In this document: positions 7,489 to 60,507 of the stretch, in pieces
How the letters are laid out: each line of letters begins with the position of its first letter
Position numbering within the stretch: position 1 is the first letter of the stretch
From: Marilutibacter penaei
GTDB lineage: Bacteria > Pseudomonadota > Gammaproteobacteria > Xanthomonadales > Xanthomonadaceae
Reading direction: 5' to 3'
DNA length: 64,000 bases
NCBI RefSeq assembly: GCF_014145395.1
Contig: NZ_JACHTE010000006.1
Location: forward strand, 1 to 64,000
The notes under the pieces: generated by a model
What the model saw: only the letters and a program-made list of their open reading frames with translations
What the model was told of the DNA's origin: nothing
The model's database searches: none
Program-made: the position numbers and the translations under genes

Positions 7489-7598
7489 GAAGGGGGAGCC
7501 CCGGGGATTGGCGTGACCGTGCGCGGCATGGATGCCGCGCCCGAGCCCCCATGGATGGGTTTACGGCGTGTCACGCCAATCCCCGGGGCTCCTCCTTC
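7489..7598 (+). repeat. Hairpin cassette copy A: 52-nt core in self-complementary arms
   Basis: Perfect 23-bp inverted arms at 7495-7517 and 7570-7592 enclose a 52-nt core at 7518-7569. The core contains its own small hairpin GCGGCATGGATGCCGC. The outer stem extends to 7489/7598 with one G-T pair. The same core occurs at 11377, 11543 and 60249 with different arms. Relative to copies B and D this copy is inverted. Confidence 0.85.
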
Positions 7599-11294: not shown

Positions 11295-11346
11295 ACATGC
11301 GCCCGGCTAATGGAAACGTGGGAAAAGAATTCTGGTGCCTTGTCGG

Positions 11347-11458
11347 CTGGCGGGGCGGGCCATGCCATGCCAGGACTCGCCGTGAATACGTCCATGTAGG
11401 CTCGGGTGCGGCATCCATGCCGCACACGGTCCTGTCACGGCACAGCCCACCCCACCTA
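11347..11458 (-). repeat. Hairpin cassette copy B
   Basis: The core at 11377-11428 (52 nt) shares the inner hairpin TGCGGCATCCATGCCGCA with the other copies. Arms of about 30 bp (11347-11376 and 11429-11458) are imperfect. Most mismatches are transitions that become G-U pairs in an RNA read from the minus strand. Orientation is the same as copy D and opposite to copies A and C. Confidence 0.75.
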
Positions 11459-11514
11459 CCAGAGTTTCGCTCTGCCCCCGCGTCGACCGCATTGCGCGCT
11501 TCGCCAAGCATCAG

Positions 11515-11622
11515 GACGCGGCCGGGCTTGGCTTTGCACGACCGTATGCGGCATGGATGCCGCATTCGAGCCTACAAGGAGGTATCTACGGCGTGTCGTG
11601 CAGAGCCAAGCCCGGCCGCGTC
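11515..11622 (+). repeat. Hairpin cassette copy C
   Basis: The 52-nt core at 11543-11594 is flanked by 28-bp inverted arms (11515-11542 and 11595-11622) that match except for one position, a U-G pair in plus-strand RNA. Its 3' arm ends 26 bp before the mlaD start. Confidence 0.85.
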
Positions 11623-11648
11623 AACCCGCATCCACAAGGTGAATTGAA

Positions 11649-59755: not shown

Positions 59756-60219
59756 GGCGGGTGCAGGCCTGCGGAAACGGGGCGCCATTGTCGCCGAAAG
59801 CCACCGGCGGTGCTGCCTTCGGGCGGAGGAAAAACCCAGCAAAAACAATGACAACGATGTCAGCTGGCATGCCCGGTAGGCAGCGCTCCTGCCGCGACGC
59901 CGGGGCAGGAGCGGTCCACGTACTCGGGTGCGGGCGCCGTGCACGGGCCAGCGCGGCGCGCAAGCGGACACGGGACCGTCTCCGAACGGGGCACCCCGGC
60001 CCTGCGGCCGGCCCGCCGGGCGTCCACGCGCACCGCGCCGGCCCCGTCGAGGTCCCCGTCGTGCCCGCCGATGGACCTGGCGGGGCCCCGGCCGGACGCC
60101 CGCGGTCCGCAGGCGAACCGCGCTGGCCCTCGCGCGAACCCGATGCGGTCCATGCGAGCGCTGTTGGGACGAGTCGTCGGGCAGAAAGGCATTCGTGATT
60201 GCGGGGTGGGGGGTCGTAG

Positions 60220-60329
60220 GAAGCCGGTGGCTCTGGAAGTCGCGTGACACGCCGTGAATCCGTCCTTGGAGGCTCGGGCGCGGCATCCATGCCGCGCACG
60301 GTCACGCGACTTCCAGAGCCACCGGCTTC
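60220..60329 (-). repeat. Hairpin cassette copy D
   Basis: 29-bp arms that are perfect inverted repeats (60220-60248 and 60301-60329) enclose the 52-nt core at 60249-60300, with the inner hairpin GCGCGGCATCCATGCCGCGC. The arms share only about seven inner bases with copy A, yet are fully self-complementary. Confidence 0.88.
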
Positions 60330-60395
60330 TGACCGGCTGATCGGCGCCTGTGATGAGAAGCAACCGAAAACCCGGAGCTACACGTTCGCGATAGG

Positions 60396-60507
60396 CGCTG
60401 CCCGGCGGGAGGGGGGTTGCGGAGAGCAGACCACGAAGGTCTGCGACCCGACTTAAAGACAGGACGTCGTCAGGAGGGCGCAGCAACCCCCCTCCCGCCG
60501 GGCGGCG
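60396..60507. repeat. Large inverted repeat E, same layout, different core
   Basis: A 21-bp perfect stem (60400-60420 with 60483-60503), extended by four further pairs with one G-T, encloses 62 nt. That core has its own inner hairpin GCAGACC/GGTCTGC. The core sequence does not match cassettes A-D. Confidence 0.75.

Follow-up and report, generated by a model that had tools for sequence, protein, structure and literature searches.

At positions 60220 to 60329 on the minus strand of the window (the whole 64,000-nt stretch of DNA that was analysed) lies copy D of a repeat that is present there in four copies, A to D. Each copy is exactly 110 nt long, with a core of 52 nt between two arms of 29 nt, and the four ungapped cores begin at 7518, 11377, 11543 and 60249, as the preliminary description had reported. 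The copies and their parts are listed below. Genes were called with a purpose-written codon-usage script, and the bit scores are those of R1, a covariance model made from 23 aligned copies of the window's own genome.

7489..7598, plus strand: copy A, complete module flanked by two genes that the script called convergent; arms with 28 Watson-Crick pairs and 1 G-U pair; 123.3 bits
7528..7533, plus strand: copy A, hairpin 1 hexaloop AUGGAU
7551..7556, plus strand: copy A, hairpin 2 hexaloop AUGGAU
11295..11623, no strand: segment with B and C between mlaE and mlaD (MlaE and MlaD by Pfam); not at that place in six other congeners searched
11348..11457, minus strand: copy B, on the left of the head-to-head pair that it forms with C in the mla operon; arms with 22 Watson-Crick, 5 G-U and 2 other pairs; 108.6 bits
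11413..11418, minus strand: copy B, hairpin 1 hexaloop AUGGAU
11390..11395, minus strand: copy B, hairpin 2 hexaloop AUGGAC
11514..11623, plus strand: copy C, right member of the head-to-head pair with B; arms with 27 Watson-Crick, 1 G-U and 1 other pair; 117.4 bits
11553..11558, plus strand: copy C, hairpin 1 hexaloop AUGGAU
11576..11581, plus strand: copy C, hairpin 2 hexaloop AAGGAG
60220..60329, minus strand: copy D, whole 110-nt module; all 29 arm pairs Watson-Crick; 124.1 bits
60301..60329 and 60220..60248, minus strand: copy D, arms; 60249..60300, minus strand: copy D, core
60285..60290, minus strand: copy D, hairpin 1 hexaloop AUGGAU (element positions 40-45)
60262..60267, minus strand: copy D, hairpin 2 hexaloop AAGGAC (element positions 63-68)

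A scan of the 64 kb for 29-nt arms separated by 52 nt and paired at 25 or more of their 29 positions gave only four places, and 20 mononucleotide shuffles of the window gave none. The core pattern was matched four times in the window against 0.00 expected. The 29 perfect arm pairs claimed earlier for copy D proved to be Watson-Crick throughout; the arm length, given as 23 to 30 bp, is instead fixed at 28-29 bp. Read in the RNA orientation, the arms of A, B, C and D contain no A-C pair. No U tract, which is a feature of intrinsic terminators, follows any of the four copies on the 3' side. No Rfam family reached its gathering score in the window, and a permissive scan of 60150-60400 gave seven sub-threshold matches, for example MIR1437 and Ysr224. 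The match to Ysr224 (Yersinia sRNA 224; 60199-60304, plus strand) scored 29.2 bits, where the gathering score is 70, and is probably due to chance. A 25-bp inverted repeat adjoins copy D (60396-60420 and 60483-60507, 96% complementary, 62 nt apart). Another repeat, AAAACCGGGGTCAGAGTCGACTTTTC with its complement, lies at 1543-1696; a near-identical inverted repeat flanks the genome's Y1 gene (L030), and a similar repeat fills the gap between mlaE and mlaD in genome G005.

The core pattern, which held the hairpin 1 loop and neither the arms nor the hairpin 2 loop, was matched at 29 places in the 3.17-Mb own genome and at none in the reversed control. Paired arms were found at 25 of the 29 places, the exceptions being L003, L006, L024 and L025. 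In L003, L006 and L025, one side has the usual sequence and the other half is different but common to all three (GCATAGCCTCCGGGCGTTC...); these loci are apparently hybrids with another repeat family. R1 gave 43 matches in this genome, a number that includes degraded copies and, because both strands are counted, some copies twice; among them were 28 full-length copies of 109-110 nt scoring above 90 bits. The values of 62 for G005, 143 for G306 and 138 for G296 are likewise numbers of matches and not of copies. The mean pairwise identity within the own genome was 0.51 for the arms and 0.87 for the core, and the arms form subfamilies with a recognisable framework. In G023 the mean arm identity was 0.87. 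Between genomes, the arms have little in common beyond the innermost three pairs. Thus, the earlier statement that the arms differ between copies holds between genomes and is slightly overstated for copies within one genome. The idea that the arms are conserved fixed ends was rejected, because they have so little sequence in common between genomes.

Pairing and covariation of the arms were examined in two sets of copies. In the 23 copies of the own genome, 27 of the 29 arm pairs showed changes on both sides, and the covariation score was 0.662, compared with 0.182 for shuffled and at most 0.134 for slid arms. The other set held one copy each from 23 gammaproteobacterial genomes, that is, 23 of the 35 rows of the class alignment (limited to the first row of each locus, to a length of 110 nt and to copies in register, with L337 excluded). 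In this 23-genome set, 648 of the 667 arm cells were paired, a percentage somewhat inflated because R1, with which the copies were found, rewards the core and arm pairing; when the 3' arms were re-dealt among the copies, the mean was 335 and the maximum 396 in 500 trials. Arm pairing at the level of chance, which the preliminary description had named as evidence against its own reading, was therefore not observed. All four Watson-Crick pair types occurred at 24 of the 29 arm positions. Covariation extends to the inner stems, where pair 8-19, for instance, was C-G in nine copies, G-C in six and A-T in six. An alternative junction pairing of core positions 1-3 with 46-48 was rejected, since pair 1-48 could form in only 14 of 23 copies. 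These results indicate that the arms remain paired by compensatory change and not by duplication of a target.

The imperfect arm pairs had been described as G-U wobbles in the orientation of copies A and C, and this was borne out far beyond the window. In 25 copies of the own genome, the arms contained 50 G-U against 5 A-C pairs in that orientation, and the ratio was 48:0 in the 23 in-register copies found by the core pattern when the outermost pair was excluded. In G005, all pairs together gave 28:30, and 29 of the 30 A-C cells lay in the outermost pair, leaving one. Because nearly all A-C cells of G005 sit there, the outermost pair was dropped for all groups. The counts were made on in-register copies of exactly 110 nt: 23 of 25 from the own genome (themselves from the 29 core matches), 40 of 47 from G005, 22 of 39 from G023, 25 of 27 from G051 and G041, and 65 of 150 aligned named loci (168 matches, found by a pattern containing both loop motifs). 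In these 175 copies of five groups, the ratio of G-U to A-C was 302:17. With the named loci set aside, the distinct events per genome group and position (own genome, G005, G023, G051/G041, 23 class loci) numbered 80 for G-U against 10 for A-C. The bias had the same direction in every group, being weakest in G051/G041 (12:5 events), and the numbers of the relatives are not independent. Such an excess of G-U over A-C on one strand means that one strand, as RNA or as DNA, is selected to fold; structure in double-stranded DNA or strand-symmetric repair would not yield the asymmetry. Together with the double-sided changes at 27 of 29 arm pairs, this strongly supports the earlier proposal of selection on a single-stranded structure in the A/C orientation.

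On the acting strand, the core forms two hairpins joined at a three-way junction. The stems of both hairpins covary, and each loop preserves CANGGANG, in which N is free. In the 23-genome set, both loops read C-A-N-G-G-A-N-G and are invariant (C10, A11, G13, A15 and G17; C33, A34, G36, G37, A38 and G40) except for one G of loop 1 (G14, 22 of 23). The other invariant core bases were A27, G28, T43, T44, A46 and C50. The hairpin 2 loop, which lay outside the search pattern used for the own genome, read ANGGA in all 23 own copies, in 40 of 40 from G005, in 21 of 22 from G023 and in 21 of 25 from G051 and G041, where the other four read ANGGA one base out of register. In the class sample, ANGGA was found in 25 of 25 copies at hairpin 2 and in 23 of 25 at hairpin 1, with N free. 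The hairpin 1 loop of the own genome is nearly always AUGGAU, and its N varies in G051/G041 (AGGGAT 15, AAGGAT 4, ATGGAT 3, three others). A UUNAC bulge (core 43-47; 60254-60258 in copy D) and A27 (60274 in copy D) likewise show little or no variation in the 23-genome set. RsmA binding does not account for these, and a tertiary contact or a second partner is possible.

These two like loop motifs are the best clue to function. The target of RsmE is an ANGGAN hexaloop in which A and GGA are conserved and N is variable, and the SELEX consensus of CsrA is RUACARGGAUGU, presented mostly in six-base loops closed by AC/GU pairs, according to PMC7652899; most of the SELEX hairpins described there have four or fewer stem pairs. 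The common form of hairpin 2, UAC-ANGGAY-GUA, closely matches that consensus. The stem of hairpin 1 has 7-9 bp and that of hairpin 2 only 3+3 bp, and hairpin 2 is missing from the minimum-energy fold of copy D. Both loops of the module carry the ANGGA that marks a hairpin of CsrA/RsmA-binding RNA. In all four window copies the sites begin at element positions 40 and 63; two CsrA/RsmA sites 23 nt apart can be bridged, so that this spacing is a candidate for occupation by one protein dimer. The folds are very stable: on either strand, the z values of copies A to D lie between -5.4 and -12.9. The sense and opposite strands gave -90.6 and -88.6 kcal/mol for A, and -86.1 and -90.8 kcal/mol for D; the opposite strands of B and C fold less stably than the sense strands.

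With regard to neighbouring genes, 78 single copies from five groups without the own genome were classified: 27 stood between convergent genes and only 8 in divergent, promoter-bearing regions, and of those between co-directional genes 23 were sense and 20 antisense; that is, a consistent sense orientation was not seen. The co-directional singles of G051/G041 were sense in no case and antisense in six. Of 26 copies in the own genome, paired ones included, 10 were convergent and 2 divergent, and the remainder leaned to sense (10 sense, 4 antisense). Adjacent pairs had their RNA 5' ends facing each other in 49 of 68 cases in Xanthomonas, 15 of 19 in G023 and 6 of 6 in G051/G041 (counts that include overlapping loci); in this arrangement, it is the antisense strand that is read first from the nearest gene. 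These orientation data count against a simple 3'-UTR element.

The preliminary description had considered the repeat to be unlike a mobile element. This view was not supported, in light of the fixed length, the patchy presence in congeners, the empty sites at B/C and the carriers found in G306. Copies B and C stand head to head between mlaE and mlaD. At the same place in six congeners, the flanks abut in two, about 48 bp intervene in three and another repeat lies in one. Read by eye, none of the six has arm sequence there, so that both arms must have arrived with the insertion; an inverted duplication of the target, or insertion into an existing hairpin, was rejected at this place on the same ground. 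In G306, where 143 of 150 scored candidates matched, the module lies inside members of at least two families of miniature inverted-repeat transposable elements (MITEs). Five copies lie in a 161-bp unit running from GCAATTCCC to GGGAATTGC with target duplications of about 9 bp (TAGTTATGT, ATCTCATTG, AATTCTAAT and TTAAAATAC; the fifth 9-10 bp), other copies lie in units of 159-162 bp with TATACC../..GGGTATA ends, and a third repeat context was also found around the module. Terminal inverted repeats with target-site duplications were thus observed in G306 only. The loci L373-L392 of G306 are near-identical MITE copies with target duplications, which suggests recent transposition there. Some copies in G005 are enclosed, as read by eye, in yet another inverted repeat, which is similar to GTCATCCCGAGCGTAGCGAGGGATCTGCTTT. 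That different ends surround one module suggests that the module is cargo and not the end of a transposase substrate. The window copies probably moved as the MITE copies of G306 did.

The module is unevenly distributed. Matches were found in 13 of 60 genomes of relatives (own included); 62 fell in G005 and 12 in G003, and four more members of that genus had none. The earlier suggestion of searching other genomes with a covariance model of the core and stem was followed with success, and 72 of 369 gammaproteobacterial genomes matched; among the matches listed, most were exactly 110 nt. In a phylum sample, 30 of 398 genomes matched, all labelled as the same class or closer among the matches listed. 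The named carriers, among the matches listed, were Xanthomonas, Rheinheimera, Stenotrophomonas, Vulcaniibacterium, Haliea, Parahaliea, Allochromatium and metagenome-assembled genomes of Cellvibrio and Thiohalocapsa. No match was obtained in E. coli at the sensitivity used. Copy D matched none of 72,556 plasmid and 50,697 phage records at an E limit of 1e-5, and a plasmid or phage vehicle was rejected on this result; a lax core search of plasmids gave seven partial matches (Sinorhizobium, Paracoccus), none covering 80%. The csrA gene is present in the own genome. It was found in 67 of 72 genomes with the module and in 246 of 297 others (Fisher p 0.029), and among good-quality genomes in 59 of 60 with the module and 221 of 254 without it (Fisher p 0.009); both tables were cross-tabulated by eye, and genome size confounds the association. 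Of the five module genomes lacking a csrA match, four are less than 90% complete; the fifth, G253, is 98% complete and has eight module matches.

We therefore consider, with moderate confidence, that the repeat specifies a structured RNA module which binds RsmA/CsrA and has miniature transposons as its carriers. The repeat would be the DNA of an RNA module of about 110 nt, in which a closing stem of 28-29 bp, nearly free in sequence and fixed in length, encloses a three-way junction with two hairpins, and the two CANGGANG loops 23 nt apart would suit one CsrA/RsmA dimer. It would move as the cargo of more than one miniature inverted-repeat transposon family and come to lie mostly in intergenic places adjoining at least one gene end. 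The sense strand is presumably transcribed, and its transcript should recruit RsmA/CsrA. Binding by RsmA may then have either of two effects: the dispersed copies may act as a decoy that lowers free RsmA, or each copy may be a local landing site that alters the stability of its host transcript. Mutations in the arms would pass through strand-specific G-U intermediates and then be compensated, and in this way the arms could diversify and still stay paired, which the preliminary description had left unexplained. Several observations count against this interpretation: the lack of a consistent sense orientation, the antisense-first arrangement of most paired copies, the five module genomes with no csrA match, the long stem of hairpin 1 and the short one of hairpin 2, the stability of the opposite strand in A and D, and the conserved UUNAC and A27.

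The asymmetry of the wobbles would also fit a sense strand that folds as single-stranded DNA and serves as a recognition structure for a transposase, either a REP/RAYT-like HUH enzyme or another, so that the covariation and wobble reflect transposition. The fixed 110-nt length, the patchy high copy number, the inverted pairs reminiscent of REPINs and the direction of the copies in G005, where 37 of 55 listed point against fork movement (p 0.014; dnaA position known, terminus taken as opposite), agree with this. We nevertheless regard it as unlikely. The own genome has one Y1 (RAYT-type) gene only, and the inverted repeat on either side of it is not the module; G003 combines 12 module matches with no Y1 match; and in G005, G023, G041 and G051, every Y1 gene is more than 10 kb from the copies among the matches listed, the closest approach being 10.7 kb (G041). 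No RAYT (Y1_Tnp) gene flanked by the module was seen in the own genome or the relatives among the matches listed, and a RAYT/TIRtron origin thus received no support. Moreover, the different ends of the MITEs in G306 argue against the module being the end for one transposase, and the free N inside ANGGA is a feature of CsrA sites. It is also rather unlikely, in our judgement, that the repeat is an ERIC/REP-like RNA hairpin that stabilises, processes or terminates transcripts near gene ends without RsmA. The scarcity of divergent copies (8 of 78 classified singles) and the very stable folds speak for such a hairpin, and 28-bp RNA duplexes are plausible substrates of RNase III. However, a stabilising hairpin needs no invariant loops, whereas CANGGANG is retained by both loops across the 23-genome set, and no U tract follows the four window copies.

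Pairing of the arms might, on the other hand, be maintained without selection, by quasi-palindrome correction (template switching) during DNA replication. In favour of this, arms are often perfect, as in copy D (29 of 29), and changes are mostly double-sided. That process is strand-symmetric, and G-U and A-C pairs would be expected in equal numbers instead of 302:17. It is disfavoured by this asymmetry unless mutation is strongly strand-biased at these sites; we think it quite improbable as the whole explanation, and it may still be a contributor. Finally, complementary flanks that differ between copies could arise if the 52-nt core had been inserted into pre-existing terminators or had duplicated its target in inverted form. 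This is scarcely credible, because the arms have a fixed length and a subfamily framework, and no arm sequence was seen by eye at the B/C place in six congeners.

We return to the RsmA/CsrA-binding module carried by miniature transposons. If this interpretation is true, it joins two fields that have been treated separately, namely, the dispersed MITE/REP repeats and the Csr/Rsm network. It would represent an RNA family spread through a bacterial class with a predicted target protein, and a clean natural case of compensatory evolution, in which about 29 bp stay paired with nearly free sequence and the acting strand is given by the G-U bias. A further speculation, which we hold only tentatively and with some doubt, is that different miniature transposons across the Gammaproteobacteria repeatedly captured one such module, and that tens, perhaps more than 100, copies form a genome-wide RsmA buffer, that is, a transposon-borne stand-in of the CsrB/RsmZ type. 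In Xanthomonas, a published search reported no homologue of CsrB/RsmB, CsrC or RsmV-Z, and RsmU is described as an RsmA-sequestering RNA derived from a 3'-UTR (PMC7694677). The same source reports that a survey of Xcc sRNAs gave 612 candidates with only two small groups of homologous sRNAs, which makes it less likely that free module RNA is abundant in that strain, provided that the strain has the module.

We found no description of the module in the open literature, to which our search was confined; in a full-text search with words of the core sequence, only the short word CCATGGATGG matched, among the matches listed. The module appears to work like a CsrA-binding RNA and to travel like the cargo of a MITE, each membership having been tested in part. 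The sRNAs that sequester CsrA/RsmA (CsrB/C, RsmX/Y/Z, RsmU of Xanthomonas and Aln1a-c of Alteromonas) resemble it in having several GGA motifs per RNA in loops or single-stranded stretches, as presented in PMC7694677 and PMC5864184. These sRNAs, however, come from dedicated genes, one or few per genome, whereas the module is a repeat scattered in tens of copies, each with two sites and a variable stem of fixed length, and is carried by MITEs in G306. The REP/REPIN repeats with their RAYT/TIRYT genes are, like the module, extragenic palindromes found as inverted pairs in high copy in gammaproteobacteria, and REP elements carry a GTAG or CGTC tag at one end, according to PMC3733652. They are only 20-40 nt long, compared with 110 nt for the module, for which no linkage to RAYT was found. 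ERIC, NEMIS and other structured MITEs are likewise miniature and non-coding and would form a stable hairpin if transcribed, and the terminal inverted repeats and target duplications around the module in G306 are of their type. In contrast to them, the conserved part of the module is an internal cargo common to MITEs with different ends, and its long stem is not conserved in sequence. The clearest outside hint of a role with RsmA/CsrA comes from P. putida KT2440, in which RNA of intergenic regions adjacent to ISPpu8 and of a "long palindromic region" co-purified with the three Rsm proteins of that species (PMC7937890). ISPpu8 belongs to the IS4 family and has 11-bp repeats (PMC3056050), and these palindromic, intergenic, IS4-linked sequences may be likened to the module by their published description.
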